This document shows, piece by piece, positions 12,383 to 29,166 of a stretch of 32,688 bases of DNA. Under the pieces are notes generated by a model that saw only the letters and a program-made list of their open reading frames with translations, was not told the origin of the DNA and searched no databases. Made by a program: the position numbers and the translations under genes. Where the stretch lies: assembly GCA_944368215.1 (NCBI GenBank), contig CALVWX010000017.1:1-32688 (forward strand), written 5' to 3'. The first letter of the stretch is position 1; the number at the start of each line of letters is the position of its first letter. The DNA is from an uncultured Clostridia bacterium (GTDB lineage: Bacteria; Bacillota; Clostridia; Christensenellales; Borkfalkiaceae).

Positions 12383-12474
12383 CAATTTTCGCTCCTAAAA
12401 TAATTTTATCGGGGAAAACCAACCCGTTACGTTTGCCGGCCGAACGGGAAATACACTTCCCCCGACCAACTTCA

Positions 12475-12781: not shown

Positions 12782-13678
12782 TCAATCTGAATTTTGCAAA
12801 ATTGCGCTGATTCCATCTGCAAAACTTGTCTGCGGACACCAACCTATTACACTGATCAGACTTGAAATATCAGGATCGAGGCTGACCATAGGCTTTTTAT
12901 CGGGCGGCGAAAACTCACAAACAGCATTTTTGTCAACAATATTTCTAAGCTCAAGTATAAAATCTTTCAATACTCTTGTATCTGCGGAAGCGACGTTGTA
13001 AACGCCTGAAGGCACATCTTTTTTACCGAGCAGATAAAAAATTTTGCCCGCATCCTTTTCGTACAGATAATTCCAGATTTGCATAGCGGCAGAAAATCTC
13101 GCGGGCTGCCCTGCACGGAACTGTCGGATAGCATACTTTATCATTGTCTGCTCACTATCATACTCTCCGTAGATACTGAAGATTCTAGTCCATATACATT
13201 TTACACCAAGGCGCTCGCATAATTTTGCACTGAATTTACCGGCGGCATATTTTGCGACACCATACGACGTAACAGGCTGCACACGAGTTTCGGGATAAAT
13301 TTTATCTGTGTAAATGCCGTACTCTGCCTGAGAGCCGGCGCCGACAAACATTTTACAGCCGCAACGCTGAGCAAGTTCTATTGCATCCAAAGTGTACTCA
13401 ACGTTGTTTAAATGGGTGCGGGGGTCGTCGCGGTTGTCCTTGGATGTGCCGGCCCACGCGAAATGATAAAACACGTCCGCACTGCCGCATATGTTCAGAC
13501 TTTTTAACTTGTCGAGGTCACATTGCACAACCTCGACAAGTTTATCCGAAGGTATGCGCCCGCTCTTATCAGAGCCATTTCTTGACACGGCCACAACTTT
13601 CACGCCGTTGGCTATACATTCTTTTATTAGCGCTGTTCCCAGCATACTGGTCGCACCGGTTATTATTACTCTATTCAT
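12782..13678 (-). CDS. NAD(P)-dependent sugar epimerase/reductase, YerF-like
   Basis: 298 aa, last gene of the glycan operon. The ATG at 13678 overlaps the TGA of the ThDP gene by one base and follows GAGG at 7-nt spacing; a GTG one codon upstream is the alternative. It is an extended-SDR protein with Rossmann motif TGATSMLG (7-14), Ser116 (GAGSQAEYG) and Tyr139-x3-Lys143 (YGVAK). Later it has SIYGEYDSEQ and GVYNVAS typical of nucleotide-sugar epimerase/dehydratase relatives. In the yersiniose A pathway of Yersinia, YerF reduces the ketone of the two-carbon branch added by YerE. Adjacency to a YerE-like enzyme and RfbH supports that role here. From sequence alone it could be any NDP-4-ketosugar reductase, so the specific assignment is inference. 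Confidence 0.68.
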   Translation of the reverse strand: MNRVIITGATSMLGTALIKECIANGVKVVAVSRNGSDKSGRIPSDKLVEVVQCDLDKLKSLNICGSADVFYHFAWAGTSKDNRDDPRTHLNNVEYTLDAIELAQRCGCKMFVGAGSQAEYGIYTDKIYPETRVQPVTSYGVAKYAAGKFSAKLCERLGVKCIWTRIFSIYGEYDSEQTMIKYAIRQFRAGQPARFSAAMQIWNYLYEKDAGKIFYLLGKKDVPSGVYNVASADTRVLKDFILELRNIVDKNAVCEFSPPDKKPMVSLDPDISSLISVIGWCPQTSFADGISAILQNSD

Positions 13679-15522
13679 CACTTTTCCTCAATCGGGGGAA
13701 TAAACATATTGCTCAAAAATTCGTCGCGCGGAAGGAAAGGCGCAAGGTCTTCGAGAGGCGGCGAAACGAGAGTGCCGTCCGCAAGGCGCTTTGTGCTGCT
13801 CTTGGGTTCCCATACCTGAGAAGTATCGGTAAAAATTTCACAAATAGCGTACCCGTCGGCCGACAAAACATTATCTACAGCCTCCCTCATCTCCACGTTG
13901 CTGTGCGCGCAGAAATAGGGATAACCGAATGCGGCGGCAATTTTTGAATAGTCGGGGAAGGACAAATCACCCGACTCCTCGCCTATGCCCACCTTTTTGT
14001 GCTGTGAAAAGAGATTGTTCTGTGTTATCCTTATGCTGTGGTATCCCTGATTGTTTATAAGGAAAATTTTTATCGGCAACTTGTTTGTAACGATTGTCTG
14101 CAACTCCTGCAGATTCATCATGATTGAGCCGTCGCCTTCGAGGCAGATTGTGTTGTTGCAGCCGCCCGCATAGCATAAACCTATCGCCGCGGGCAGGCCG
14201 TATCCCATACTTGCAACTGCGCTGTTGATTATAAAGCGCGTGCCTTTTTTGATAACATAAGTCTGATGTCCCGCAACACAGCAAGCTCCGTTTGAAACGG
14301 CTGTCAGACTATTTTCGGGAAGCTTTGAACTGAGGTAATCGATAAACGCATATACATTCGCATACTCCTCCGTCCCCTGCTTGTGTCTCGGCAGGCATAC
14401 GGGATATTTTTTCTTCCAGTTCAGGCAGGCGTCCGCCCAGATTTTATTTGCAAAAATCGGCGCAGTTATATCACCAAGCTTTTTATTGAGTGCGGATAAA
14501 AAATCTTTAACATCCGCCCATATAGGCATATCGACATGAATGGTATGCTTTTTCATCTCGGCGCGGTCGATATCTACCATAATCACCTTTGCCGCCCGGG
14601 CCCATGTAGAGAAGCTGTAACCCGTCTGGCGGATGGATATGCGCGTGCCGATGGCCAGAACGAGGTCACTGTTCTGCACGGCGAAATTGCCCGCGCGGTC
14701 ACCCATATTGCCGCCTCTTCCCACATATAACGGGTCTTCAGTCGATATTAAATCTATACTGTTCCAATAGGTGACTACAGGCACGCCGAGCTTGCGGATG
14801 ACTGTACAAAATTCGTCATACCCGCCCGAGAGCCTTATGCCGCCGCCCGCATATATAACGGGGCGCTCCGCAGCCTTAATCAGCTCTATTACCTCATCTA
14901 CGGCATCTTCATTCACCTTGGGAGGAAGTCCCTTATCATCCTCTGCCGGATTGTAACCTTTAAGGTCGTCAGTTTGAATATATCCGCCCTGAAAATTGAC
15001 GGGGATATCCACCCACACGGGGCCGGGGCGGCCCGTGGTTGCAAAATGCCACGCCTTTTCCAAAATATAGCGTATATCATTGGGATCTTCCACCATGACG
15101 GCATACTTTGTCATTGGCGTGACGCTCTTTACTATGTCATATTCCTGATCGCCGACGGCTCGCAGGGGAAGGCCGCCAGTAAAGCGGCTCGCATATCTGG
15201 CCGTCGTGTCGTAGCGCACCTGCCCGCTTATTATGAACATGGGAATAGAATCGAGCCATCCTCCCAGCACACCCGTTATGGCGTTTGTACCACCTGGGCC
15301 CGTGGTAACGCAGACGGCGGCTATTTTATTTTCAAGACGGGCGTAGGCTTCAGCTGCAATGGCGCAAGCCTGCTCGTGATGGTTATATACAACTTTAAGC
15401 TCTTCTCTGTGCCCCAAGGCATCATTGAGGTGCATTGCGCCTCCCCCCACCACGCTGAAGCAGTGGGTTACGCCCTTTGATATGAGAAAATCAGCAACAT
15501 AGTCGGCAAGTCTTTGCTTCAT
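13678..15522 (-). CDS. ThDP-dependent acetyl-transferring enzyme, YerE-like
   Basis: 614 aa, in the acetolactate synthase / pyruvate oxidase superfamily. Three domains are expected: Pyr (about 1-175) with activating Glu50 in NHHEQACA, a central Rossmann-like domain (about 205-335), and PP (about 390-570) with the ThDP/Mg2+ motif starting GDGS at 463 and closing at NNQG. Known: YerE in Yersinia uses pyruvate and ThDP to attach an acetyl unit to C4 of CDP-4-keto-3,6-dideoxyglucose, forming the branched sugar yersiniose. The gene sits 9 nt behind rfbH, which makes that substrate, and overlaps a reductase matching YerF. This context favours YerE over acetolactate synthase: no ilvN or ilvC is near, and the operon is purely glycan-related. 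Other ThDP carboligases acting on ketosugars remain possible. Confidence 0.7.
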   Translation of the reverse strand: MKQRLADYVADFLISKGVTHCFSVVGGGAMHLNDALGHREELKVVYNHHEQACAIAAEAYARLENKIAAVCVTTGPGGTNAITGVLGGWLDSIPMFIISGQVRYDTTARYASRFTGGLPLRAVGDQEYDIVKSVTPMTKYAVMVEDPNDIRYILEKAWHFATTGRPGPVWVDIPVNFQGGYIQTDDLKGYNPAEDDKGLPPKVNEDAVDEVIELIKAAERPVIYAGGGIRLSGGYDEFCTVIRKLGVPVVTYWNSIDLISTEDPLYVGRGGNMGDRAGNFAVQNSDLVLAIGTRISIRQTGYSFSTWARAAKVIMVDIDRAEMKKHTIHVDMPIWADVKDFLSALNKKLGDITAPIFANKIWADACLNWKKKYPVCLPRHKQGTEEYANVYAFIDYLSSKLPENSLTAVSNGACCVAGHQTYVIKKGTRFIINSAVASMGYGLPAAIGLCYAGGCNNTICLEGDGSIMMNLQELQTIVTNKLPIKIFLINNQGYHSIRITQNNLFSQHKKVGIGEESGDLSFPDYSKIAAAFGYPYFCAHSNVEMREAVDNVLSADGYAICEIFTDTSQVWEPKSSTKRLADGTLVSPPLEDLAPFLPRDEFLSNMFIPPIEEK

Positions 15523-15531
15523 AAATGCACC

Positions 15532-16875
15532 TTATAAATTGCAGGCCTCGATGATTACCTTGGCCATATAGTCTATCATATCGTCGGTCATGCCGGGATA
15601 AACGCCCACCCAGAAGGTGTTATTCATTATGAAATCGGTAGCAGTCAGGTCACCTGCTATCCTGTAAGCATCCGTGCCGCGGATGGAATCGAAACAGGGG
15701 TGTTTTATGAGGTTTCCGCTGAATAAAAGGCGGGTTTGCACGTTGCGGGCTTCAATATACTTCGTGATTGCATTCCTGTCGAGTCCGCTTTCGGGGCGGA
15801 CTGAGATGAGGAAGCCGAACCACGAAGGATTGCTGCCCTCGGCTGGCTGAGGCAAAATAATCTTATCCTCTATGCACTCAAGCGCTTTATGAAGCCTTGC
15901 CCAGTTATGGCGGCGACGCTCGATGAACGACGGAAACTTTTTAAGCTGTTCGCATCCTATTGCCGCCTGCATATCCGTGACTTTTAAATTATAGCCGAAG
16001 TGGCTGTAAACATATTTGTGGTCGTAGCCGGCGGGAAGTTCGCCGTACTGGCCGTCGAAGCGGTGACCGCAGAAGTTGTCGCGGCCGGAAGGGCAGATGC
16101 AGTCCCTGCCCCAATCTCTGTAAGACAGAATAAGCCTGTTAAGTTTAGGGTCATTTGTGTATACGCAGCCGCCCTCGCCCATAGTCATATGGTGGGGGGG
16201 ATAAAAGCTGGAGGTTCCGATGTCTCCCCATGTTCCCGTATACTTTGTTACGCCGTCAATGGTATATTCGGAACCCAATGCATCGCAGTTGTCCTCCACA
16301 AGCCAAAGATTGTGCTTATCACAAAACTGCTTTACAGCCTTTAAATCGAAGGGATTGCCCAAGGTGTGCGCCACCATTACGGCCTTGGTCTTATCGGAGA
16401 GAGCGCTTTCGAGCTTTGAAACATCTATGTTATACTGAGGAACTGACACGTCGACAAACACAGGCACGGCGCCATACTGAAGAATGGGCGTGACTGTTGT
16501 CGGGAAGCCGCAGGCTACCGTTATTACCTCATCACCACGCTTAATGCGCCGCTCCCCTAATTCGGGCGCGGTAAGAACGGAAAAGGCAATCAGATTTGCA
16601 GAAGACCCGCTGTTGACAAGATGGGCAAACTTTACACCTATCCATTTAGCAAACTCTCTTTCAAACTCGTCAGAAAATCTCCCCGTAGTAAGCCAGAAAT
16701 CAAGAGCTGCATCCGTTAACGCGCACATTTCCTTTTCGTCATACACTCTGGCGGCATACGTTATTCTGTCGCCTTCTTTGAAGGGCGCCTTCTTCTCCTT
16801 GTATTCATGATAATATCCGGCCACCATAGCCTTTATTTGCTCCCTTGCTTCCTGTTCGGTTTTTCCCTTAAACAT
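15532..16875 (-). CDS. rfbH: CDP-4-keto-6-deoxyglucose 3-dehydrase (RfbH/DdhC, E1)
   Basis: 447 aa, close to the family's about 437. The start at 16875 (MFKGKTEQEA) follows AAGGAG at 12 nt and overlaps the end of wzx by 8 nt. It has the DegT/DnrJ/EryC1 aminotransferase fold with the diagnostic change: the PLP lysine is replaced by His (FYPPHHMTMGEGG, His228/His229). It also carries the cysteines of the [2Fe-2S] cluster: Cys197, Cys259, Cys261 and Cys269 (C-x61-C-x-C-x7-C; the Yersinia enzyme has x57). The enzyme makes PMP-bound 3,4-glucoseen, and a reductase (DdhD/E3) passes electrons through the cluster to give CDP-4-keto-3,6-dideoxyglucose. Substrate is supplied by RfbF and RfbG in the same operon. 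No E3 gene is in the window. Confidence 0.93.
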   Translation of the reverse strand: MFKGKTEQEAREQIKAMVAGYYHEYKEKKAPFKEGDRITYAARVYDEKEMCALTDAALDFWLTTGRFSDEFEREFAKWIGVKFAHLVNSGSSANLIAFSVLTAPELGERRIKRGDEVITVACGFPTTVTPILQYGAVPVFVDVSVPQYNIDVSKLESALSDKTKAVMVAHTLGNPFDLKAVKQFCDKHNLWLVEDNCDALGSEYTIDGVTKYTGTWGDIGTSSFYPPHHMTMGEGGCVYTNDPKLNRLILSYRDWGRDCICPSGRDNFCGHRFDGQYGELPAGYDHKYVYSHFGYNLKVTDMQAAIGCEQLKKFPSFIERRRHNWARLHKALECIEDKIILPQPAEGSNPSWFGFLISVRPESGLDRNAITKYIEARNVQTRLLFSGNLIKHPCFDSIRGTDAYRIAGDLTATDFIMNNTFWVGVYPGMTDDMIDYMAKVIIEACNL

Positions 16876-18451
16876 TCTTATCTTCATCTCCTTTATTTTT
16901 ACTTTCTGTTGTAGCCTGTTCATCTTGCTGAACACATGTTGATTTTTTACGGTTCAGTTTGTCCTTTACGGAAGTTAGTATATTGTTTATAAGAGATATA
17001 AAAAATTTATCTCTGAGAAGAAAAAGCGCCACAAAGTAGGCAAGCGCTCCTGCTGCAGTTATAAGGATGAATGTCCATATCGAATACCCGAGATACATTT
17101 GCATGAAGAATATCGGCAAGAACATAACTGCAGCGGCAACAATATACTTCCAGCTTGAGACAATTACTTTTTTAATCGACAGAAATTTATATTTCCATGC
17201 AAAAATTGCCAGCACCGTCGTAACCAGAACTTCGCAGACCGCCGTCGCAATCGCCGCACCCGTCGCTCCGCAGACGGGAATCAGGAAATAGTTTAATAAA
17301 ATATTGACAACCGCAGCACAAAGCGTTGCGATAGTCGGATACTTTTCTTTGCCGATAGCGATAAACAGTTGGTCACCGAATACTACTCCGAAACCGCTGA
17401 CGATAAAGCGCACAGACATGACCTTCATCAAAAGAGGAACTTCGGCATAACCTTCGCCTAAGAACCAACTGCTTAAATTTTCAGACAGTACCGCAAACCC
17501 GACAATTAGCGGCACACCTATCATCCATACATAGTTGCATGCAAAATACAGATGATTTTCAAGACTTTTCTTGTCGCCAACCTTATAATCATGCGCATTG
17601 CGTGAAATCATTACTGAGGATATTACCGTAACAAGCAATAGCGCCACGCTGTTGAGTTTATATGCCTGTTCATAACAACCGTTTTCATAGTCAGGATTAT
17701 CAGCAAGCAAGCCTATCATGGTCTTGTCAAAGACAGAATAAACAGTAACCGCAAGCGTTGGCAAAAATATAAGGAAAGCGGGTTTTATGTGGTGCGTCAG
17801 TTTTAGTTCGGACGGCTTAACGAAGGAAATCCGCCTTGCTATGGCCGGCCACATAATCAAATTTGCACCCAATGTTGATGCCGCAGTAAGCAAGGCATAA
17901 ACCCATAGGTCGCCCTCATCTTTTACAAATACAAAAATACAGACGAGCGCCACAACCTTCATAATGATCGTTCTTATGGCTATTGATCTGAAATCCTCAT
18001 CTCCGCGGAACAGGAACTGGATATCAAACGGGATGGCAATCACCTGAAGCGACATTATCAATACTAAATAATTGTAACTCTCGCCAAACCCGACCGAAAA
18101 AGCTATTGCATACAAAACGATAAGCGACACGGCCGTAGTAAGGCACTTCAGAATGAACAGTTCCCAAAACACTCTGCTCTTATTGTATTTATCGTCCTGA
18201 TACCGTGCAATTTGCCTTTGTCCGTACACGTCAAACCCCATATTTGCAAACAGCGTGAAATATGTAATTATCGACGATGCATAGCTGTACTGGCCGTTGC
18301 CTACCTCATGCAGTACTCTCGCAACATACGGTGCAGTTATAAGGGGCACAATCAATATTAATATCTGCCCTATAAAATTGTATATAAAATTTGATTTTAA
18401 CCCGCGTTTTTTAACGGGAGGCTGATTTATTTCAGGTTGAGAAAGCTCCAT
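16868..18451 (-). CDS. wzx: Wzx flippase (polysaccharide unit transporter)
   Basis: 527 aa, polytopic with about 12-14 hydrophobic helices, PST/MATE-like. N-terminal marks include SNFIYNFIGQILILIVPLITAP and YVARVLHEVGNGQYSYA, typical of Wzx. A charged tail of about 30 residues is cytosolic. It is expected to move undecaprenyl-linked repeat units across the membrane for Wzy to polymerise. It overlaps rfbG by 25 nt at its start and rfbH by 8 nt at its end, so these genes are translationally coupled. The ribosome site AAGGAG is only 2 nt from the ATG, an unusually tight spacing, but no other start with a better site was seen. Confidence 0.9.
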   Translation of the reverse strand: MELSQPEINQPPVKKRGLKSNFIYNFIGQILILIVPLITAPYVARVLHEVGNGQYSYASSIITYFTLFANMGFDVYGQRQIARYQDDKYNKSRVFWELFILKCLTTAVSLIVLYAIAFSVGFGESYNYLVLIMSLQVIAIPFDIQFLFRGDEDFRSIAIRTIIMKVVALVCIFVFVKDEGDLWVYALLTAASTLGANLIMWPAIARRISFVKPSELKLTHHIKPAFLIFLPTLAVTVYSVFDKTMIGLLADNPDYENGCYEQAYKLNSVALLLVTVISSVMISRNAHDYKVGDKKSLENHLYFACNYVWMIGVPLIVGFAVLSENLSSWFLGEGYAEVPLLMKVMSVRFIVSGFGVVFGDQLFIAIGKEKYPTIATLCAAVVNILLNYFLIPVCGATGAAIATAVCEVLVTTVLAIFAWKYKFLSIKKVIVSSWKYIVAAAVMFLPIFFMQMYLGYSIWTFILITAAGALAYFVALFLLRDKFFISLINNILTSVKDKLNRKKSTCVQQDEQATTESKNKGDEDKNV

Positions 18452-19488
18452 ATCTCCTTGTCCATTTCTTTGGGAATATCCGCTGGACTTTTAAAGTAAA
18501 CATGAGTCCAATCGGCTATTTTTTGGATAGTTTCATCTATATGCCATCTCGGTTTCCAGCCGAAAACATTTTTCAGTTTACTATTGTCAAGCTTTAAAAA
18601 GGAAGCCTCGTGCGGACCACCGTCATGTTTATTTATCCATGAGGCGCCGTCTCCCCATACATTGCAGAATTTAGTTACGAGGTCACCCGTATTAATGCAA
18701 TCGCAATCATCCGGTCCAACATTGTAATATCCCTCATACTTCCTGTCATTCCATTGTTTTTCAGCGATATCGAGATAGACAAAAAGAGGTTCTAAAACAT
18801 GCTGATACGGGCGCGTAGAATAAGGATTGCGCACAATAATCTTTTCGCCCTTTTCAATAGCGCGTATGCAGTCCGGAATAATTCTGTCTTCAGCAAAATC
18901 TCCGCCGCCGATGACATTGCCCGCACGCGCTGTAGAGACAGCACACCTGCCGTCCGTAAAAAAACTTTTTTTATAACTGTGGGTAACCAACTCGCTGCAC
19001 GACTTCGAATTGCTGTAAGGATCATATCCGTCCAGCGGTTCGTCCTCTTTGAATGGGTGGTCGGGAATGTCGTCGTTTAAATACACCTTGTCGGTTGTGA
19101 CGTTCAAAAAGCTCTTTACGCTGTCGCACAAACGCACACATTCAAGCATATTGACCGTACCCATCACGTTTGTTTCATATGTGTATCGGGGTTCACGATA
19201 AGATACCCTTACTATGGGCTGAGCCGCAAGGTGCAAAACTATTTCGGGCTTAAATTTATCAAATACTTTTTTTAATTTGTCATAGTCCCGTATATCGCCT
19301 ATGACCGAGGTCATATTGCCTCCCACGCCTGAAATTTCAAATAAATTCGGAGTTGTAGGGGGGTCCAATGCATAACCGTACACATCCGCACCTGCATTTA
19401 TTAATATCTTGCAAAGCCATGCGCCTTTAAATCCCGTGTGACCCGTCACAAGCACCCGCTTGCCGTTGTAAAAACTCAAATCTATCAT
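18427..19488 (-). CDS. rfbG: CDP-glucose 4,6-dehydratase
   Basis: 353 aa. The ATG at 19488 overlaps the rfbF stop by 4 nt (ATGA) with GGAAGGA upstream; an ATG five codons earlier is less likely. It is an extended SDR: NAD-binding GHTGFKG at 16-22, active-site TTDK at 131-134, and Tyr158-x3-Lys162 (YSNSK). GNVIGGGDFAEDRIIPDC and RPYQHVLEPL are hallmarks of the CDP-glucose (RfbG/DdhB) rather than dTDP-glucose family. It converts CDP-glucose to CDP-4-keto-6-deoxyglucose, feeding RfbH. Coupling to rfbF, which makes its substrate, strengthens the assignment. Confidence 0.95.
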   Translation of the reverse strand: MIDLSFYNGKRVLVTGHTGFKGAWLCKILINAGADVYGYALDPPTTPNLFEISGVGGNMTSVIGDIRDYDKLKKVFDKFKPEIVLHLAAQPIVRVSYREPRYTYETNVMGTVNMLECVRLCDSVKSFLNVTTDKVYLNDDIPDHPFKEDEPLDGYDPYSNSKSCSELVTHSYKKSFFTDGRCAVSTARAGNVIGGGDFAEDRIIPDCIRAIEKGEKIIVRNPYSTRPYQHVLEPLFVYLDIAEKQWNDRKYEGYYNVGPDDCDCINTGDLVTKFCNVWGDGASWINKHDGGPHEASFLKLDNSKLKNVFGWKPRWHIDETIQKIADWTHVYFKSPADIPKEMDKEIWSFLNLK

Positions 19489-20273
19489 TGCTTGTCCTTC
19501 CATACCATCCAGGGGGCATTATTTGTTGCAATCAGTTTTTCAAGCATATCCATTTCACGCTTGGTATCCATGCACTGCCAATAACCTTTGTGACTGTATG
19601 ACATAAGCTGTCCTTCTGCGGCGAGCCTCTTAAGCGGCTCCTTTTCAAACACGGTATCATCGCCGCCTATATAATTAAAAATCTGCGGCTCAAGCACCAT
19701 ATATCCCGCATTTATCGGCACGCCGTCGAGCGCGCTTTTTTCACGGAATGAATGCACGGCATTATCGCCGCCGATGTCCAACACACCCTTCTGTTGTTCA
19801 AGCAAAACCGATGTGAGCGTAGCAATTTTGCCATGGTTTTTGTGAAACTCGACGAGTTCGCTTATGTTTACGTCGCACACACCGTCGCCATATGTCATCA
19901 TAAAGGTTTCGTTGCCGACGTATTTCTGTATGCGTTTAATTCTGCCTCCGGTCATAGTGTTTAACCCGGTATCCACGACGGTAACTTTCCACGGCTCGCA
20001 ATATTGATCGTGAATAATCATATCATTGCGCCCGTGCGTAAAATCAAAAGTCACATCGCTGTTATGAAGAAAATAATCGGCAAACCATTCCTTTATCACG
20101 TGCTGCTTATAGCCCGCACAAATTATGAACTCATTGAATCCATAATAAGAATACTCCTTCATAATATGCCAAAGAATGGGCTTGCCGCCTATTTCTATCA
20201 TGGGTTTAGGCTTAAACTGACTTTCTTCCGAAATGCGGGTTCCAAAACCGCCTGCTAAAAGTACTACTTTCAT
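19485..20273 (-). CDS. rfbF: Glucose-1-phosphate cytidylyltransferase
   Basis: 262 aa, normal length. Nucleotidyltransferase signature LLAGGFGTRISEES with PKPMIEIGGKPILWHI; YGDGVCDV supplies the metal-binding Asp; GGRIKRI and the C-terminal GYWQCMDTKREMD are typical of RfbF/DdhA. It makes CDP-glucose from CTP and glucose 1-phosphate, the entry step for 3,6-dideoxy sugars. The ATG at 20273 is one base after the preceding gene's TAA, with AAGGA upstream. It overlaps rfbG by 4 nt. Confidence 0.96.
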   Translation of the reverse strand: MKVVLLAGGFGTRISEESQFKPKPMIEIGGKPILWHIMKEYSYYGFNEFIICAGYKQHVIKEWFADYFLHNSDVTFDFTHGRNDMIIHDQYCEPWKVTVVDTGLNTMTGGRIKRIQKYVGNETFMMTYGDGVCDVNISELVEFHKNHGKIATLTSVLLEQQKGVLDIGGDNAVHSFREKSALDGVPINAGYMVLEPQIFNYIGGDDTVFEKEPLKRLAAEGQLMSYSHKGYWQCMDTKREMDMLEKLIATNNAPWMVWKDKQ

Positions 20274-20274
20274 A

Positions 20275-21255: not shown

Positions 21256-21274
21256 TTACCAACAGTCTCCTAAG

Positions 21275-22519
21275 TTATATTTTAGCAAGCATATAACTGT
21301 GCTTAACTACGGATTTTTTTTCTTTGTAATTATTGATTGAGATTACTGCAAACAATGCAAATATTCCTACGTTCGAGAACATATATAGCATAGGCAGATT
21401 GATATTTGCAATAAGAAAAGCAACCATATAGCAGAACATTCCGCAATAAACGGGAAATATCTTCTTGTCCTTATTAATTTTTCTTATAATACTTCTGCAA
21501 GCCGCAACAGCTATAAATGCAAACACATAGAATATGACAAGTTGTAGAATTCCGCCGTGATAAATCAGCGATACAAGCCCTGATTCCATCTGCCTGGGAG
21601 CAGGCACAAAGCCAAGCAAAGTCAATACAGATATTGAGCTCAGGTCAAAGCTGTCCAGATGTCCGTAAATACTCCCCATCTTTCCTTGTATAAACGAATT
21701 TATCGAAGAATACTGCCACACATACACCAACACAGCCAATGTTGTAAACAGAGCCACTACAACAAGAATTTTTACAAATTTTCTTAATGTATATTTTTTA
21801 TAATTTATTGCTTTATTCAGCAACAGAATTATCATTAACGCAATGAATGAAAATATCCCTGTCAACGACCATGTCAGTATCAAAAAAATTGAAAGTAACG
21901 CGACATAAACTATGCGCTTCACAGAACGGAATTTGCAAAATGCATACGGTATAAAAAATGCCAGCATAACCGAAAAACCGTTGGGGTCATCCCATGCCCC
22001 CCCGAACCGAACATCATAGAAATATCCTGTATCATAACCCAGCGCAGGCAATCGTCCATTTATAAAATACAACCCGAGCTGAATCAATTCATAAACTATC
22101 GTAAAGCACATAAAGAAGTGACACACTTTATCGATAGTTATTACATTTATATTGCCGGAGAACGACATAACCAGCACAGCCGGACAAAAACATATAATTA
22201 GAATCAAGTCATCGATATCTTTACATAAAATAAAGGAATATACGCTTTGAATTATTAAAACCCACAGCAATACATAGGCCAACTTTGATGACGGATTGAG
22301 CTTCTGATTTAGAATCGAACCAAAAGCACCTAAAATCAATAAAATGAGAATGATATATTTTGCAAGCTGAAAAAACAACGGCGTATCGCTATATGTCGGG
22401 GACGTCATTTCAGCATTGTAGCGAAACACATAGCGATAAGAGTAGTAAAACAAATAAAGAATAAGCATCGCCACAATCCAATTTGTCAGACTTTTATTCG
22501 CATATTTCTGTTTTGGCAA
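21275..22519 (-). CDS. wzy: Wzy-like O-antigen/capsule polymerase
   Basis: 414 aa with about ten to twelve hydrophobic helices and little else in common with named proteins, as is normal for Wzy. The soluble stretch around RFGGAWDDPNGFSVM resembles the conserved outer-loop segment of O-antigen ligase/polymerase (Wzy_C/O-Ag_lig) proteins. The start appears to be TTG at 22519, preceded by a GGGGGGTGAT ribosome site at suitable distance; a downstream ATG would lose the first membrane segment. It polymerises lipid-linked repeat units outside the membrane with Wzx. AT content is clearly higher than in the flanking housekeeping genes, common in such loci. Confidence 0.78.
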   Translation of the reverse strand: MPKQKYANKSLTNWIVAMLILYLFYYSYRYVFRYNAEMTSPTYSDTPLFFQLAKYIILILLILGAFGSILNQKLNPSSKLAYVLLWVLIIQSVYSFILCKDIDDLILIICFCPAVLVMSFSGNINVITIDKVCHFFMCFTIVYELIQLGLYFINGRLPALGYDTGYFYDVRFGGAWDDPNGFSVMLAFFIPYAFCKFRSVKRIVYVALLSIFLILTWSLTGIFSFIALMIILLLNKAINYKKYTLRKFVKILVVVALFTTLAVLVYVWQYSSINSFIQGKMGSIYGHLDSFDLSSISVLTLLGFVPAPRQMESGLVSLIYHGGILQLVIFYVFAFIAVAACRSIIRKINKDKKIFPVYCGMFCYMVAFLIANINLPMLYMFSNVGIFALFAVISINNYKEKKSVVKHSYMLAKI

Positions 22520-22561
22520 TGAGAATCACCCCCCTTTAATAATTATTTAATAATACGCCTG

Positions 22562-23590
22562 TTAATAATACACCTGTATATTTTTTACCAATGCTTCAGC
22601 AAATAAAACGTAACTGTATTTATCTGCCCTTGAAAGTTTCTTTGAATCTATGAATTCAGGCGCTTGTAAAAGCTTATCTTTCAAATCATCCTTATCACCG
22701 CATTTGAAAAATATAACAGGCAAATCTCCGTAAATTTCTTTAAATACGGGAATATCAGAAATGATGGGCTGAGTTCCTAAATGCAACGCCTCTAAAGGTG
22801 GAGCACCGAAGCCTTCGTAAAGAGACGGCTGAACTAGAAATGAAGCGGAAGCTATTTCGCTAAGCAATGCCTCGTCACTTATATAACCGGTAAAAACCAC
22901 ATCGTCAGACATAAGGTCTTCCGTATTCATACCTGTAATAAAGCCATCTTTTTCCCCTATAATTTTCAGCTTATATTTACCCTCGGGAATCATATGAAAG
23001 GCATCGATTAAAGTTTTAAGTCCCTTATGAGGCTTGACGTTACCTACATAAATAATAGTGTCAGTCTTTTTTATGCCGTTCGTATTAAAACCGAGCACTT
23101 CCTTTGAAAGGCCGACATAATTCACATAACACTTATCGACATATTTCGGAAAATAATAGCCGCAACGTTCCCTCGTAAAATCCGAAACACAGGCAATTTT
23201 TACCGACTTTTTCATACAACGCTTCAACAGCATCTTTTTTATGCGATAGTCGATAAATCCTTTGGTGGTAATTTTGGGCATATCGAGAAAAATTAAATCG
23301 TGCACCACCGAATATACGGGGATTTTTATGCCGTAAGGTATTATAAAATTAGGAATTATAATGCAGTCACATTTCTTATTGATATGTTTATGAAATGAAA
23401 ACAAACCTTTTGCCGAAAACGGACTTGTGCTATCAGATACGATATGAGCCTCAGAATACTGCGCAAGTTTTTTTTCATCACCTATAAGGTAATATTCGTG
23501 GGCTTTGTAATCGATATTATCCAGAATGCCCTGACATACCCTGCCTATACCCGATTTCCCGAGATATCTGCAATCGATTGCTATTTTCAT
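22562..23590 (-). CDS. GT4-family glycosyltransferase
   Basis: 342 aa, GT-B fold. N-terminal MKIAIDCRYLGKSGIGR is the usual GT4 acceptor-domain start. The C-terminal domain begins at YVGNVKPHKGLKTLIDAF (about 181-198) and carries the EX7E motif EGFGAPPLE (259-267) that binds the sugar nucleotide. ATG and the upstream gene's TAA share a base (TAATG), so translation is coupled. Donor sugar cannot be deduced; GDP-heptose or GDP-mannose are plausible given neighbours. A 42-nt gap separates it from wzy. Confidence 0.88.
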   Translation of the reverse strand: MKIAIDCRYLGKSGIGRVCQGILDNIDYKAHEYYLIGDEKKLAQYSEAHIVSDSTSPFSAKGLFSFHKHINKKCDCIIIPNFIIPYGIKIPVYSVVHDLIFLDMPKITTKGFIDYRIKKMLLKRCMKKSVKIACVSDFTRERCGYYFPKYVDKCYVNYVGLSKEVLGFNTNGIKKTDTIIYVGNVKPHKGLKTLIDAFHMIPEGKYKLKIIGEKDGFITGMNTEDLMSDDVVFTGYISDEALLSEIASASFLVQPSLYEGFGAPPLEALHLGTQPIISDIPVFKEIYGDLPVIFFKCGDKDDLKDKLLQAPEFIDSKKLSRADKYSYVLFAEALVKNIQVYY

Positions 23591-24726
23591 TATGAATGCT
23601 CCCGCAAGTCGCTGAATAATTGAGTTACGCTTTTATTGAACTGTACACCGGAAAAAACTTCTTCGGCGCGAGTTTTTGCATTGTCTCCGTACTTTTTGCG
23701 CAGATTTTCATCCTCGCCTAAAGTTTTTATGGCTTGAGCATATTGTTTAACATCACGGTTATCAACCTCAATGCCGGTCTGCCCGTTTAATGACACATAA
23801 TTTACGCCCGACCCGGGAATAGTGAATGTGACAGCCGGTTTACCGCACGCCATGGCTTCGGCAAGAGCAAGTCCGAACGCTTCGTTTTTAGTGATGGACG
23901 GAAAACAAAAAATATCACAGGCATACAAACGACTTTTTAATTCCTCATCGGAAAGTCTGCCGAGAAAACACACCTTTTTATCGCCACCGGCGAGCGCCTT
24001 AAGTTCGCCGGTGAGCGGGCCTTCTCCTCCTATCCATATTACATATTCCGGGCCGAGCAGTTTGCTCGCCTCGACTAAGTACTTCAGCCCCTTGTATTCA
24101 ACGTGCCTGCCCACGGCGAAGCATATGATCTTACCATTTTCTTCACGCTTCAGCTGCTCTGCCCGTGTAACCACTTCAGAAGTTAAGCTCACGCGCGAAT
24201 TATTTATGCAGCTCGGAATTACTATACACTTATTCCTGACCGACTGTAACATATCGCTGCCTGCTATATAATTTGGGCTTGTAGCGACGACCTTACATGC
24301 ATGTGACAACAGCCATTTAGATTGCTCAGTAAAAAAGTTTTTTAATAACTTCTGCTTTGTTATGTCGAGATGCCACCATAAAATCAGATGGCACGACGGA
24401 TGCTTTTTTAATTGCTTCTTTAAAAAATGGGCGGCAAAGGGATTTGGATAATGGAAAATGACCGCATCCGGTCTAAATTCATCAAAAACTTTTTTTAATA
24501 TTTTCCCATAGGAAAAGGATAACGATTGCGACGCAACCTTTGCAAAGCACTTGGTGCGTATAATTTCGACACCATCCACTATATCGGACGAGTTCTTTTT
24601 TTCGTGGTTAAAACAGAAAACTTTTATTTCATGCTTGTCTTTCAAAGCATTAGCAATATCTCTTGAAGTCTGTTCTATGCCGCCGATATGCGGATAATAA
24701 TAGTTGCTTATTTCTAAAATTTTCAT
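23590..24726 (-). CDS. GT4-family glycosyltransferase
   Basis: 378 aa, starting at ATG 24726 (MKILEISNYYYPHIGGIEQ), with a weak GGTTGAT ribosome site and 5 nt after the gmhA stop; an in-frame TTG three codons earlier is possible. It is GT-B: the acceptor domain opens with YPHIGGIE, the donor domain with AVGRHVEYKGLKYLVEA, and NEAFGLALAEAMACGKP is the EX7E motif. It follows the GDP-heptose gene set directly, so a heptosyl or mannosyl transferase is a reasonable guess, no more. Cytosolic or membrane-peripheral. Confidence 0.88.
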   Translation of the reverse strand: MKILEISNYYYPHIGGIEQTSRDIANALKDKHEIKVFCFNHEKKNSSDIVDGVEIIRTKCFAKVASQSLSFSYGKILKKVFDEFRPDAVIFHYPNPFAAHFLKKQLKKHPSCHLILWWHLDITKQKLLKNFFTEQSKWLLSHACKVVATSPNYIAGSDMLQSVRNKCIVIPSCINNSRVSLTSEVVTRAEQLKREENGKIICFAVGRHVEYKGLKYLVEASKLLGPEYVIWIGGEGPLTGELKALAGGDKKVCFLGRLSDEELKSRLYACDIFCFPSITKNEAFGLALAEAMACGKPAVTFTIPGSGVNYVSLNGQTGIEVDNRDVKQYAQAIKTLGEDENLRKKYGDNAKTRAEEVFSGVQFNKSVTQLFSDLREHS

Positions 24727-24731
24727 AAAAA

Positions 24732-25382
24732 TCAACCAAAGAATTTTTCTTCAAGCATTAAGCAAATAGTGTGATATACGGGCAAATGAAGTTCCTGAAC
24801 CATGTATGTTTCTTTTGAAGGCACTTTTATTGCCACATCTGCAACTCCGGCAAGTTCACCGCCTTTGGCACCTGTTAAGCCAATAACTTTAAGCCCTTTT
24901 GCCCGTGCTACAACTGTTGCATACATTACGTTTTTTGAATTGCCCGAAGTGGATATGCCGAGGAATACATCCCCCTCTTTACCATAACCGTTTATCTGCT
25001 GGGCATACATTAACAGCCCGCCGTTAGGCACATCGTTGATAAAAGCCGTATTCAGTCCCTGATGTCCGTCCAGCGCGATAGCCGGCAGCCCGCCCTGCAA
25101 TCTTTCGGCGAGCTCTTCGCCTCTGACGGGGTCGATTGATTTAAGCCTCGCGGCATAATCTTCGCCGCACTTGCGGGGAAGTTTGAATCCTTTCATAAGT
25201 TCGCCGACTATATGTTCGCTGTCGGCGCAGCTGCCGCCGTTGCCGGCAATCAGCAGTTTGTTTCCGCTTGCAAAACACTCCTCTAAAATATTATAAGCCT
25301 GGATAATCGACTGCTCGCATTGCTTAAGCGCGGGATATCTTTGAGTTAATAAGTCGATATGTTTTTGTAATTTTGCGTCCAT
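24732..25382 (-). CDS. gmhA: Sedoheptulose-7-phosphate isomerase
   Basis: 216 aa, slightly longer than the usual 190-200. SIS fold with LLIAGNGGSCADSEHIVGEL (44-63), the phosphate and Zn region of GmhA, GISTSGNSKNV in the middle, and a conserved C-terminal VQELHLPVYHTICLMLE helix. It converts D-sedoheptulose 7-phosphate to D-glycero-D-manno-heptose 7-phosphate, the first step of both heptose pathways. With hddA and the hddC-gmhB fusion immediately upstream, the GDP-heptose branch is meant. It starts 4 nt after the fusion gene's stop, with AGGATGA as ribosome site. Confidence 0.95.
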   Translation of the reverse strand: MDAKLQKHIDLLTQRYPALKQCEQSIIQAYNILEECFASGNKLLIAGNGGSCADSEHIVGELMKGFKLPRKCGEDYAARLKSIDPVRGEELAERLQGGLPAIALDGHQGLNTAFINDVPNGGLLMYAQQINGYGKEGDVFLGISTSGNSKNVMYATVVARAKGLKVIGLTGAKGGELAGVADVAIKVPSKETYMVQELHLPVYHTICLMLEEKFFG

Positions 25383-25386
25383 AATA

Positions 25387-26673
25387 TCATCCTAATATTT
25401 TATTTACGGCGTCCGACAGACTCGCGCACCGCAAGTCCGCTCTCTCATCGTCGCCTATAACCGCAGTCTTGCATCCGCCGTTTATGCCGCACAGGACGTC
25501 GTTTTCACCGTCGCCTATCATCCAGCTTTGAGCGAGGTCGATATTAAAATCTTTCGCCGCTTCAAACAGCATGCCCGCCTTGGGTTTGCGGCACCCGCAA
25601 TCTGTTTTCAGTTCGGGTATTTCGCCTTCATATCCCTTGTGCGGATGATGGGGACAATAATAAATACCGTCCACATATGCGCCGTCCAACCCCAAAAGCG
25701 TCTCCATCTTATTGTGTATTTCGTCGAGCTCTTCCACCGTCACTTCGCCGCGGGCGATAACGGGCTGATTGGTGACAACAATGGCGAGATAACCACTTGA
25801 ATTAATTCTTTTTATTGCTTCCGAAACACCGTCAATCAGCTCGAAATCGTCTATGTCTCTTAAAAAACCGACATATTTATTAATTGTGCCGTCGCGGTCG
25901 AGAAATATGGCTTTTTGTTTCCTTTGAAGGTTTTTGCCCTGAACTATGCCGCATTTAAAATCGCGGCACACGCTTTCATACCTGTCGGGCGTACCCATAT
26001 CCTTGACGTATTCGGAAGAATCGTAAACAAACATCTTGCCCGTTCCCGAGAGAGGCTTTAAAATCTGTCTGTCGAGGTCGACCTTTGCCGTTGTGATCTC
26101 CTGCTCCAGAACTACGGGGGAAATTACATGCAGGCCGGCATTGACGCGGTTTTTATAATACGCGGGACGGACATCCTCTTTAGTAAGCCATTGTTCGACA
26201 GCGCCGTTTTTACCGGCGATTATCAGCCCGCTGTCGTAAGGGTGAGAATTCGGGTGAGTAAACAGCGTGACTAGGCCGCCCTTGGCTTTATGGTAGTCTA
26301 CAAACCTGTTGAAATCTATATCGAAGACGGCGTCCGCGTTGAGAAGAAGAAAGTCTTCCGTCAGCCTATCCTTGAGCCTGAACAATGCTCCCGCGTTGCC
26401 GAGAGGTTCGCGTTCAAAATAATATTCAATATTGACGCCGAAGGGCTTGCCCGTTGCCGGAGATACGCCGCGTCCGTCGCCGAAGTAATCCATTATTATA
26501 TTGCCGAGATGGCTGACTGTCAGTATGAGATCGGTAAACCCCTGCGAGCGCAGGCATTCTATTTCGCGCTCGAGCACGGGCACGCCGTCTATTTTTATCA
26601 TAGGCTTGGGGATATCGCTGGCGACAGACGAAATTCGCGTACCCTTGCCCCCGGCCATTATAACTGTTTTCAT
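25387..26673 (-). CDS. HddC-GmhB fusion: heptose-1-P guanylyltransferase plus heptose-1,7-bisP 7-phosphatase
   Basis: 428 aa, two enzymes in one chain. Residues 1 to about 235 are a nucleotidyltransferase (MAGGKGTRISSVASDIPKPM, LLLNADAVFD, YVKDMGTPDRY), matching HddC. Residues about 253-428 are an HAD phosphatase: FLDRDGTIN with Asp259/Asp261, TNQPVIARG, the GmhB-type Zn site Cys340, His342, Cys359, Cys361, and IGDGENDV. The C-terminal half removes the 7-phosphate from heptose 1,7-bisphosphate; the N-terminal half then forms GDP-D-glycero-alpha-D-manno-heptose. These are consecutive steps, so fusion makes sense for channelling or balanced expression. It stands 3 nt after hddA with only a weak ribosome site, suggesting coupling. 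A strict ADP-heptose path is less likely because HddA, not HldE, is present. Confidence 0.9.
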   Translation of the reverse strand: MKTVIMAGGKGTRISSVASDIPKPMIKIDGVPVLEREIECLRSQGFTDLILTVSHLGNIIMDYFGDGRGVSPATGKPFGVNIEYYFEREPLGNAGALFRLKDRLTEDFLLLNADAVFDIDFNRFVDYHKAKGGLVTLFTHPNSHPYDSGLIIAGKNGAVEQWLTKEDVRPAYYKNRVNAGLHVISPVVLEQEITTAKVDLDRQILKPLSGTGKMFVYDSSEYVKDMGTPDRYESVCRDFKCGIVQGKNLQRKQKAIFLDRDGTINKYVGFLRDIDDFELIDGVSEAIKRINSSGYLAIVVTNQPVIARGEVTVEELDEIHNKMETLLGLDGAYVDGIYYCPHHPHKGYEGEIPELKTDCGCRKPKAGMLFEAAKDFNIDLAQSWMIGDGENDVLCGINGGCKTAVIGDDERADLRCASLSDAVNKILG

Positions 26674-26676
26674 AGG

Positions 26677-27690
26677 TTACTTTTCGCGCCTGGCGTTGGG
26701 ATCGTAAAATTCAGCGGAATAATAAATTACGCGCGTACCGCTGTTTTCAAATTCAAAGGGGACATGCAAAAGATTATGCATGGCTTGCAGAACAGCATTG
26801 CGTTTTTCGGGCTGGACATAGAAAAGCAGGAACCCGCCCCCGCCCGCGCCGAGAAGCTTACCGCCCAATGCGCCTGCATTTACGGCCTTTTCGTACAATT
26901 CATCGATGGAGCCCGTCGAAATTTTACTTCCGGTCTGGCGCTTCAGCCGCCATGTTTCATCGAGCAGTCGGCCGAAATCGTCAAGATCACGGCTGTTGTT
27001 CGTAAGCACTTTTTCTGCTTCGTCCACTAAGGCGAGCATTTCCCTTAACTGCGTTGTTTTATCTTTTATCGCGGCGCCGGTGGCCTGCTGAATTTCAGAA
27101 GAAAATCTTGTAAATCCGGTAAAGAACAACAAAAGATTGTCGTTCAGCATCTTCTTGCGTTCGGGCGAGATAATTACGCGGTTTACCTCGTAGTCGTCGC
27201 CGTTGAAAGTAATTTTATTAAAACCGCCGAAAGATGCGGCAATCTGATCCTGCCAACCGCCCGCCTCGTTGCAAAGCTTTCTTTCAAGGAATATAGCATC
27301 GTCTGCAAGTTTCTTTTTATCTGCATATCTGCCTTTGAGGCAATAGAAAGCGTTCAGCAATCCTACTGCAAACGAACTGCTTGTCCCGAGCCCCGTGCGT
27401 GCGGGGAGATCGGCTTCGTAAGTGATGCGCAGCTCGTGCATATCCAGCATTTTCATTGCGTTGCGTATGAGCGGATGCTCAATATCGTCGACCGCGGTCA
27501 CGCGTTCGATTTTAGCATAGCTGGCTTCGGTGGTATAGTCGAAAAAGGGCGGCAAATGACGCACGTTTACATAACAATATTTATCGAACGTCGTCGACAA
27601 AACGGCCCCGCCGTTTTCCCTGAAAAACTGCGGCATATCCGTTCCTCCGCCAAAAAAAGACATTCGGAATGGTGTTTTGGTAATTATCAT
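26677..27690 (-). CDS. hddA: D-glycero-alpha-D-manno-heptose-7-phosphate kinase
   Basis: 337 aa GHMP kinase. N-terminal KTPFRMSFFGGGTDMPQFF is typical of HddA; the ATP loop LPARTGLGTSSSFAVG lies at 95-110; a late GALGGKLLGAGGGGF closes the site. It phosphorylates C1 of the heptose 7-phosphate to the alpha 1,7-bisphosphate, the step that commits to the GDP-heptose route. Ribosome site AGGAGAT lies at a good distance from ATG 27690. First of the heptose genes, 18 nt after the initiating transferase gene. Confidence 0.94.
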   Translation of the reverse strand: MIITKTPFRMSFFGGGTDMPQFFRENGGAVLSTTFDKYCYVNVRHLPPFFDYTTEASYAKIERVTAVDDIEHPLIRNAMKMLDMHELRITYEADLPARTGLGTSSSFAVGLLNAFYCLKGRYADKKKLADDAIFLERKLCNEAGGWQDQIAASFGGFNKITFNGDDYEVNRVIISPERKKMLNDNLLLFFTGFTRFSSEIQQATGAAIKDKTTQLREMLALVDEAEKVLTNNSRDLDDFGRLLDETWRLKRQTGSKISTGSIDELYEKAVNAGALGGKLLGAGGGGFLLFYVQPEKRNAVLQAMHNLLHVPFEFENSGTRVIYYSAEFYDPNARREK

Positions 27691-27708
27691 GTGATATCTC
27701 CTGCTATC

Positions 27709-28440
27709 TCACTTTGCTCCGTCGCGTTTTATGACGGAGATTATTGTTTTGAAAATTATTTTTAAATCGAACCAGACCGAACAATGATCCACATAATAGA
27801 GCTCAAGCTTCTGACGCTCACCGCTTTCGTAAGTGACGTTGCTCCTGCCGTTTGCGCCCCACCAGCCAATCATTCCCGGCTTAACCGAGAGGAGCTTAGA
27901 TGCCGAATGACCGTATTTCTCTATGACTTCTTCCTCCATCAGCGGGCGGGGGCCGACGACGGACAATCTGCCGACGAAAATATCCCATACCTGAGGCAGC
28001 TCGTCAAGCGACGTCTTGCGCAGAAATTTACCTACTTTTGTGATGCGCGGGTCGTTATCTATTTTGAATTCACGCTTATACTGTTCAAGCTGTTCAGGCG
28101 TAAGCATATCTTCAAGCTTGTCTGCATTTGGTTTCATGCTCCTGAACTTGGATATAAAAATATGCTTGCCGTTTTTGCCCATGCGCGGATGTTTATATAT
28201 AACCTTGCCGCCGTCGCTGAACTTGACGACAAGCGAAAGAATTATAAACAGCCACGAGAAAATTATTAAAAACAACCCGGACGAAACTATATCGAATGTT
28301 CTTTTTATAAAAAGATATCCGCATCTTTTTTTGAATTTTTTTTCGCCTGTCTCATTCCCGCAAGCAGTAGCGATAGCCTGAGCCCCCGCCTCCGTTGTCG
28401 AAGCGGCAACTTCATCCTTATTTAAATTTTCTTGCATCAT
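27709..28440 (-). CDS. Initiating undecaprenyl-phosphate sugar-phosphate transferase
   Basis: 243 aa. The start at 28440 (MMQENLNKDE) follows AGAGG at a normal distance; a reading from 28488 has no ribosome site. After a polar N-terminus of about 45 residues comes the bacterial sugar transferase domain (PF02397): KRTFDIVSSGLFLIIFSWLF is the re-entrant membrane helix, then FRSM, TSLDELPQVWDI and RLSVVGPRPL, ending near the C-terminus. It loads the first sugar phosphate (often galactose, glucose or N-acetylated sugars) onto undecaprenyl phosphate at the inner membrane face. As first gene of the operon it marks a Wzx/Wzy-type pathway. The lack of extra N-terminal helices places it with the short PglC/WbaP C-domain type. 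No clear promoter was found just upstream. Confidence 0.92.
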   Translation of the reverse strand: MMQENLNKDEVAASTTEAGAQAIATACGNETGEKKFKKRCGYLFIKRTFDIVSSGLFLIIFSWLFIILSLVVKFSDGGKVIYKHPRMGKNGKHIFISKFRSMKPNADKLEDMLTPEQLEQYKREFKIDNDPRITKVGKFLRKTSLDELPQVWDIFVGRLSVVGPRPLMEEEVIEKYGHSASKLLSVKPGMIGWWGANGRSNVTYESGERQKLELYYVDHCSVWFDLKIIFKTIISVIKRDGAK

Positions 28441-29137: not shown

Positions 29138-29166
29138 ATAATACTACCAAATCCAACCTTTGTCAA
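29138..29166 (-). promoter_or_regulatory. Promoter of the small membrane protein and perhaps the glycan operon
   Basis: Minus strand TTGACA (29166-29161), 17 nt, TATTAT (29143-29138). It leaves a 5' UTR of about 80 nt before ATG 29049. Confidence 0.8.

Follow-up and report, generated by a model that had tools for sequence, protein, structure and literature searches.

A clostridial operon that probably directs synthesis of a glycan with a yersiniose-like branched 3,6-dideoxy sugar and a heptose

The DNA analyzed in the current study (the window) spans all 32,688 bases of contig C17, from the 1.67 Mb genome (92% complete) of an uncultured Clostridia bacterium. It carries fourteen minus-strand genes running from position 28440 to 12782, which form one compact operon (the gene order was checked in the sequence). 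From the promoter onward, the following features were identified:

29138-29166, minus strand: probable operon promoter, TTGACA-17-TATTAT (11 of 12 consensus positions; one match, 0.02 expected)
27709-28440, minus strand: PglC/WbaP-type polyprenyl-phosphate hexose-1-phosphate transferase, predicted to start the repeat unit (PF02397, 6.9e-59; WbaP model 245 bits, below its cut-off)
26677-27690, minus strand: HddA-like heptose 7-phosphate kinase (GHMP kinase domains; solved relatives 4usm, 3k85 and 4n3o)
25387-26673, minus strand: HddC-GmhB fusion, sugar-1-phosphate guanylyltransferase and heptose-1,7-bisphosphate 7-phosphatase (NTP_transferase at residues 2-215, HAD part at about 253-406; TIGR00213; 2gmw)
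24732-25382, minus strand: GmhA-like sedoheptulose 7-phosphate isomerase (SIS domain; TIGR00441 132 bits, below the cut-off of 209)
23590-24735, minus strand: GT4 glycosyltransferase a (PF00534, 4.3e-32)
22562-23590, minus strand: GT4 glycosyltransferase b (PF00534, 7.8e-24)
21275-22519, minus strand: putative Wzy-like polymerase, assigned by its topology and position (no family match; about 11 hydrophobic stretches, some overlapping)
20275-21255, minus strand: GT2 glycosyltransferase, candidate for branched-sugar transfer (PF00535, 2.3e-22; cassette-linked GT2 family model 50 bits)
19485-20273, minus strand: RfbF, glucose-1-phosphate cytidylyltransferase (TIGR02623 362 bits, cut-off 300)
18427-19503, minus strand: RfbG, CDP-glucose 4,6-dehydratase (TIGR02622 418 bits, cut-off 278)
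16868-18451, minus strand: Wzx flippase (PF01943, 2.7e-28)
15532-16875, minus strand: RfbH, E1-type CDP-4-keto-6-deoxyglucose 3-dehydrase with [2Fe-2S] and pyridoxamine 5'-phosphate (NF011936 716 bits, cut-off 423; Cys and His aligned with E1)
13678-15522, minus strand: YerE-like (JanthE-clade) thiamine diphosphate (ThDP) carboligase, proposed to add the C4 branch (8rph, JanthE, 452 bits versus 240 for acetohydroxyacid synthase, AHAS; trees; active-site columns)
12782-13681, minus strand: short-chain dehydrogenase/reductase (SDR), proposed to reduce the branch ketone (PF01370; linkage to two kinds of ThDP enzyme; extended-SDR fold, predicted model confidence, pLDDT, 94.9)

Spacing across the operon ranged from 42 to -25 bases, with several overlaps, and the SDR is the last gene. 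The wzx/rfbH spacing would be -68 if the listed GTG start of rfbH were taken; the ATG overlapping the wzx stop, which gives a protein of 447 aa, is the likely start. The ATG at 28440 lies inside the first gene, whose mechanically derived open reading frame begins at a TTG (28488). The sigma-70-like promoter pattern upstream of the operon occurs only once in the window, and the gene downstream has a sigma-70-like promoter of its own (12502-12475). The first-pass annotation had described these genes as one operon on one strand, with tiny gaps or overlaps and wzx between rfbG and rfbH, and this description was confirmed throughout. The G+C content was 0.36-0.45 from about 17 to 26 kb and 0.46-0.57 in nearly all remaining stretches of the window; low G+C is usual for glycan loci.

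Taken together, the operon probably makes and exports a Wzx/Wzy-type glycan that contains a yersiniose-like branched 3,6-dideoxy sugar and a heptose, i.e. an uncommon combination of two known pathways and no new kind of system. For the first sugar, there is good support for a C4-branched 3,6-dideoxyhexose, most likely one that bears a reduced two-carbon branch. In the proposed pathway, RfbF would convert glucose-1-phosphate to CDP-glucose, RfbG would convert this to CDP-4-keto-6-deoxyglucose, and RfbH, fed by ferredoxin or flavodoxin, would produce CDP-4-keto-3,6-dideoxyglucose. The ThDP enzyme would transfer an acyl carbanion onto C4, the likeliest being a two-carbon unit of pyruvate, so that the ketone becomes a tertiary alcohol bearing an acetyl-type branch, and the SDR would reduce the branch ketone to yield a yersiniose-like CDP sugar. 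The PglC-type enzyme would start the repeat unit, the three glycosyltransferases would extend it, Wzx would flip it and Wzy would polymerize it.

RfbF, RfbG and RfbH all scored above the curated cut-offs, and we take them to correspond to ddhA, ddhB and ddhC of the yersiniose A route. RfbH aligned with E1 (3bcx, 516 bits), including the histidine that replaces the lysine binding pyridoxal 5'-phosphate; a second E1 chain with a lysine at this position is presumably the H220K variant. All four [2Fe-2S] cysteines (217, 279, 281 and 289) are kept. For comparison, relatives' loci were taken from the best 80 of 568 ThDP-enzyme relatives, ranked by likeness to JanthE; the 91 ThDP loci compared are not a random sample, and score thresholds were set by the analyst. 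RfbH was found in 57 of these loci, RfbF in 54 and the SDR in 29. The four-cysteine pattern was present in 47 of the 57 RfbH-labelled frames. The ten frames lacking it comprised seven that are at most 35% identical and hence probably other aminotransferases, one that is cut short, and those of L044 (48%) and L047 (44%). Among 297 genomes of the same order, RfbH of the E1 type occurred in 14, including all 12 that carry the ThDP enzyme.

The ThDP enzyme has the three domains PF02776, PF00205 and PF02775, a GDG motif and the catalytic Glu50, the glutamate being kept in 82 of 82 clade rows of the alignment. Its best solved relative was JanthE, an assayed ketone-accepting lyase from Janthinobacterium (8rph, named as JanthE in PMC12188165; 8rpi, 8rpj), the physiological substrates of which are described as not identified in the accessible part of PMC12188165. 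In a 39-row tree the enzyme fell within a 34-row clade with JanthE (support 100/99.9), and four AHAS sequences, including the genome's own, lay outside. An 89-row tree agreed (84-row grouping, support 100, AHAS outside). One sequence, own_C18 (the longest frame in L004, assumed to represent the ThDP enzyme that the genome carries on C18), was misaligned, with a branch of 7.8 in the larger tree, and was dropped from the smaller one, from which L111 is also absent. The window enzyme and JanthE are 39% identical and share conserved ThDP and C-terminal PPLEDL regions, but JanthE has a CDG motif and a proline where the window enzyme has GDG and an arginine, and the loci of its nearest relatives contain DmpF/DmpG. 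The column that holds tryptophan in plant, yeast and the genome's own AHAS (presumably Arabidopsis W574) holds threonine in the window enzyme and glutamine in E. coli AHAS I. From its sequence, the enzyme appears to be YerE-like in the JanthE sense, and yersiniose A is not necessarily what it makes. The nearest relative among the matches listed was that of L063, another uncultured Clostridia bacterium (91% identical). A plasmid search with the window enzyme gave no match; one with PpYerE gave 82 records, all below 60% identity, and the 30 among the matches listed were acetolactate synthases where annotated. It was also found that five loci (L049, L050, L051, L052 and L055) have YerE-like frames of 854-940 aa together with other recurring neighbours; RfbF, RfbG and RfbH were not detected there, and the acceptor sugar may differ.

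The SDR is of the extended type, with a YxxxK motif at 140. A structure search with its model returned extended SDRs of many kinds, 14-22% identical among the 50 matches listed. Its own family is tight: 32 other members matched at E below 1e-30 among the frames searched, and the next match was at 6e-11. Including the window, these 33 rows had a YerE-like partner in 26 cases, a split transketolase in three (G001, G045 and G068), both in one and neither in two, and one lay at a contig end. One SDR family accompanies two unrelated branch-adding enzymes, and branch-ketone reduction is therefore its likeliest task; on this gene linkage, the SDR probably reduces the branch ketone. In the part of PMC4753412 that was available, the corresponding step of Gram-negative yersiniose routes was called uncharacterised in 2016. 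The SDRs of the window and L063 fell in a different subclade from that of G277, a genome of the same genus; as a guess, the split might reflect a different side-chain configuration.

In four genomes of the order, a split transketolase pair was observed next to RfbF, RfbG and the SDR, in the slot usually held by the YerE-like gene (L162 8197-9923, L165 3024-4768, L166 7232-8949 and L026 6919-8729), and the pairs of G001, G045, G068 and G294 were confirmed with Pfam. In G294 (L026 8626-10412), a YerE-like gene in two pieces, missing part of its middle, is followed by a split transketolase pair, which looks like a replacement under way. Ketone-accepting split transketolases have been reported as 13 putative sequences, all from Streptomycetes (PMC12247030), so that pairs in the YerE-like slot would extend this class.

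For the heptose, the GmhB half of the fusion scored 152.8 bits with TIGR00213, above the cut-off of 149.6, and the best solved relative of the HAD half was 2gmw (126 bits; heptose bisphosphatases). The best solved relatives of HddA were heptose-type kinases (4usm at 137 bits, 3k85 and 4n3o); 4usm is a sugar kinase that we take to be WcbL. The GDP-heptose gene set proposed at first pass was thus supported by the GmhB score and the solved relatives of HddA and the HAD half. HddA, HddC-GmhB and GmhA were adjacent in all five other operons mapped (G277, G256, G246, G158 and G140), which were drawn from 15 other genomes matching the fusion. As far as the accessible part of PMC10680097 describes the GDP-heptose route of C. 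jejuni, its GmhA, HddA, GmhB and HddC steps are matched one by one by GmhA, HddA and HddC-GmhB of the window. In the HS:2 strain, gmhB lies outside the capsule cluster, whereas in the window HddC and GmhB are fused and all heptose genes lie in the glycan operon.

The likely acyl donor was approached through the genes that accompany the 91 ThDP loci. Candidate keto-acid genes were of the HpcH/HpaI type (14 loci), HMGL-like (12), DmpF (12), DmpG (11), NeuB-type (10), AroB-related (12) and PfkB (3). In the 47 loci of at least 10 kb with RfbF and RfbH, 18 had the SDR only, 20 a donor gene only, five both and four neither (Fisher 3e-5); across all 91 loci the numbers were 21, 41, 8 and 21 (p 7e-4). 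Donor genes thus tended to be missing where the SDR was present. None of the candidate genes was detected in the window, where the SDR is present, and the single HpcH/HpaI-like match in the genome is a pyruvate kinase (TIGR01064 558 bits, cut-off 306), which together favour pyruvate as the donor. The product of the HMGL-like gene (L024 11119-12744 and 11 other loci) is about 525 aa long, and its aldolase part bears a weak resemblance to 4-hydroxy-2-oxovalerate aldolase. The AroB-related genes encode "sugar phosphate phospholyase (cyclizing)" or a relative; a frame in L106 (15090-16145) scored 469 bits with TIGR04425 (cut-off 400).

Several findings weigh against the proposed pathway, and some of them favour an alternative. 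The first concerns the electron supply of RfbH. A Pfam search detected no protein with FAD_binding_6, the core domain of E3, in this 92% complete genome (control matches in 8 of 14 genomes), and therefore no classical E3 reductase, leaving the RfbH step without its usual partner. The domain was likewise not found in four of the 11 relatives carrying the ThDP enzyme; in the other seven it matched frames of 263 to 412 aa away from the cassette. E3 proper (FAD_binding_6, NAD_binding_1 and Fer2) was present in three of 57 RfbH loci, all from Bacteroidota, and in one more Bacteroidota locus with no RfbH within the stretch compared. The E3 queries were taken from the same four loci that were then scored, so distant E3s could be overlooked in other loci; a separate motif scan found only those four. 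According to the accessible text of PMC8987622, SpnQ is a 3-dehydrase that performs E1-type chemistry with general ferredoxin/flavodoxin pairs and no dedicated E3. By analogy, the electrons of RfbH probably come from a general ferredoxin or flavodoxin, although SpnQ acts on a dTDP-2,6-dideoxy sugar and the donor of RfbH is deduced. The genome encodes a pyruvate:ferredoxin oxidoreductase, for which 673 aa of a 1188-aa frame scored 847 bits with TIGR02176 (cut-off for the whole protein, 911).

The second finding concerns the relation to YerE itself. PpYerE (5ahk), a YerE homologue of solved structure, lay outside the JanthE clade, and its identity to the window enzyme (29%) was within the range observed for AHAS (27-30%). 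Forcing it into the six-row group of the window enzyme was rejected (p-AU, approximately unbiased test, 1.7e-5), with the group picked after the 89-row tree and the PpYerE branch being long. The structure 5ahk is presumably PpYerE, since the valine at 479 fits the residue reported in a review as mutated in that enzyme. The ThDP enzyme had at first been equated with YerE, but the nearest assayed relative found was JanthE. Because the enzyme lies outside the PpYerE lineage and no E3 was found, the product name "CDP-yersiniose A" given at first is too specific, while the CDP-3,6-dideoxy-4-keto route that it implied was retained. Compared with the yersiniose A route (ddhABCD-yerE-yerF), the window has the same RfbF/G/H set and the same proposed C4 acyl transfer, but the genome lacks the ddhD (E3) domain and the ThDP enzyme is not orthologous to PpYerE.

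The third concerns the acyl donor. JanthE accepts keto acids of both short and long chain (PMC12247030), which leaves pyruvate unproven as the donor, and the SDR/donor-gene statistics ignore relatedness and depend on a donor-gene set chosen by the analyst. Moreover, in 17 other loci with a ThDP enzyme at least 65% identical, an HMGL-like gene was present in six and the SDR in eight, so close homologues may use a different donor. A longer or functionalised branch (erwiniose- or caryophyllose-like), built from a keto acid that the cell produces elsewhere, such as a 4-hydroxy-2-oxo acid, is therefore the alternative that survives best, though we regard it as unlikely. It is favoured by the long donors that ErwE needs (PMC12247030) and by the donor genes counted above. 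Against it, such genes were not detected in the window (HpcH/HpaI was searched genome-wide, the other donor families only in the window), nor in the stretches compared of L063 and of L018, the latter from the same genus.

A fourth group of findings concerns the SDR. In L167 and L168, relatives of the SDR stand beside RfbF-RfbG, a mutase or 3,5-epimerase being a further neighbour, and no ThDP enzyme was detected in the stretch compared. These SDRs may reduce C4, which may also be the older role of the family. Conversely, G147 has the ThDP enzyme and RfbH with no SDR within the stretch compared. On the evidence of L167 and L168, it is conceivable that two CDP sugars are made, the SDR reducing C4 of part of the pool (abequose- or paratose-like) and the ThDP enzyme taking the rest. 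This is improbable, as L167 and L168 branch apart from the remaining 31 SDR rows (support 100/98), outside the clade of the window; of these 31 rows, 30 share their locus with a YerE-like or transketolase partner and one lies at a contig end. Three glycosyltransferases in one operon would also seem to leave little space for an extra sugar.

The fifth concerns the heptose set, in which GmhA (132 bits against 209), HddA (134 against 600) and HddC (82 against 300) all fell below strict curated cut-offs. Together with the best matches of the HddC half, which were to mannose-1-phosphate or UTP-type transferases, this could mean that the nucleotidyltransferase-kinase set makes a GDP or NDP sugar other than D,D-heptose. 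We give this slightly less weight still, given the conserved adjacency of the three genes, the GmhB score and the heptose-type solved relatives of HddA described above. Finally, the ThDP enzyme could be read as an acetolactate synthase of branched-chain amino acid biosynthesis that is out of place here, which is hardly credible: NCBIfam acetolactate synthase models matched at up to 335 bits, but the two best fell far below their cut-offs (335.5 against 738 and 328 against 538), and the identity is ruled out by these scores, both trees and the Trp to Thr replacement, with an AHAS-type enzyme on contig C7 grouping with AHAS and the relatives lying near RfbH and RfbF at the frequencies given above, in agreement with what had been claimed at first.

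The preferred reading, a branched 3,6-dideoxy sugar paired with a heptose, was then set against the distribution of its two gene sets. The ThDP enzyme was found in 12 of 297 genomes of the order and in two of the 10 sampled genomes of the genus; the HddC-GmhB fusion was found in 16 and five, respectively, a few of the genomes matching only part of it. Both sets occurred together in two genomes of the order (G000 and G277, of the same genus) and, besides the window, in one of the 91 ThDP loci. With so small an overlap, the idea that selection maintains the two pathways as a unit throughout the order was rejected. The pairing had been called unusual for a Gram-positive lineage; it is indeed rare, but YerE-like cassettes are widespread, though sporadic, in Clostridia, many of which were among the best 80 of 568 loci. 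In G256 and G158 the front half (PglC-HddA-HddC/GmhB-GmhA-GT4) is kept with no ThDP cassette, L063 carries the back half (RfbF-RfbG-Wzx-RfbH-ThDP-SDR), the 5.2 kb compared upstream of it showing no heptose genes, and G277 carries both. The halves occur apart, and the operon is therefore best read, from its gene order, as a mosaic of a genus-typical heptose front and a mobile cassette.

With regard to assembly, of the 14 operon proteins, the GT2 protein alone matched the model of the GT2 family that is found with the cassette in 39 loci, and it is therefore the candidate branched-sugar transferase. From the PglC/WbaP-type start, three glycosyltransferases, Wzx and the Wzy-like protein, we infer a repeat of about four sugars, in which the sugar order and the identity of Wzy are likewise predicted. 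One Wzy_C-type protein is encoded elsewhere in the genome (C40). LpxC (PF03331; control matches in 4 of 14 genomes), LytR-CpsA-Psr (PF03816; 7 of 14) and the SLH domain (PF00395; 4 of 14) were not found in this genome at its 92% completeness, suggesting neither ordinary lipopolysaccharide nor the usual Gram-positive attachment.

Interest in C-branched sugars and their ThDP enzymes comes from the search for catalysts that give chiral tertiary alcohols, and most YerE-like enzymes identified in silico have yet to be linked to a sugar structure (PMC12247030). Because the cassette in this locus is compact and has few accessory genes, its product can be tested; the locus also points to C3 deoxygenation free of E3. 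More tentatively, and as a possibility that we would not yet call probable, anaerobic Clostridia may branch CDP-3,6-dideoxy or CDP-6-deoxy sugars with interchangeable ThDP modules (a JanthE-clade lyase or a split transketolase) that feed one SDR family, with E1 running, in place of E3, on ferredoxin that central metabolism reduces; the window would then hold one such cassette behind a genus-typical GDP-heptose front half. Among the open-licence titles and abstracts listed, none was on this sugar pairing, clostridial cassettes of this type or clostridial branched sugars, although the Krug 2024 survey may contain some.

Outside the operon, a 986-aa, apparently secreted protein is encoded directly after it under its own promoter (9425-12385); apart from one Listeria-Bacteroides repeat, it had no family match. 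Near the contig end (29170-32637) lie a LysR gene, a PAP2-like gene (recognised by eye, no family match) and an iron alcohol dehydrogenase gene, each as short or broken reading frames that may reflect sequence errors or decay. At the other end (3-308), a repeat-rich reading-frame start with tandem GGDEEEGGTTNP-type units runs off the contig.

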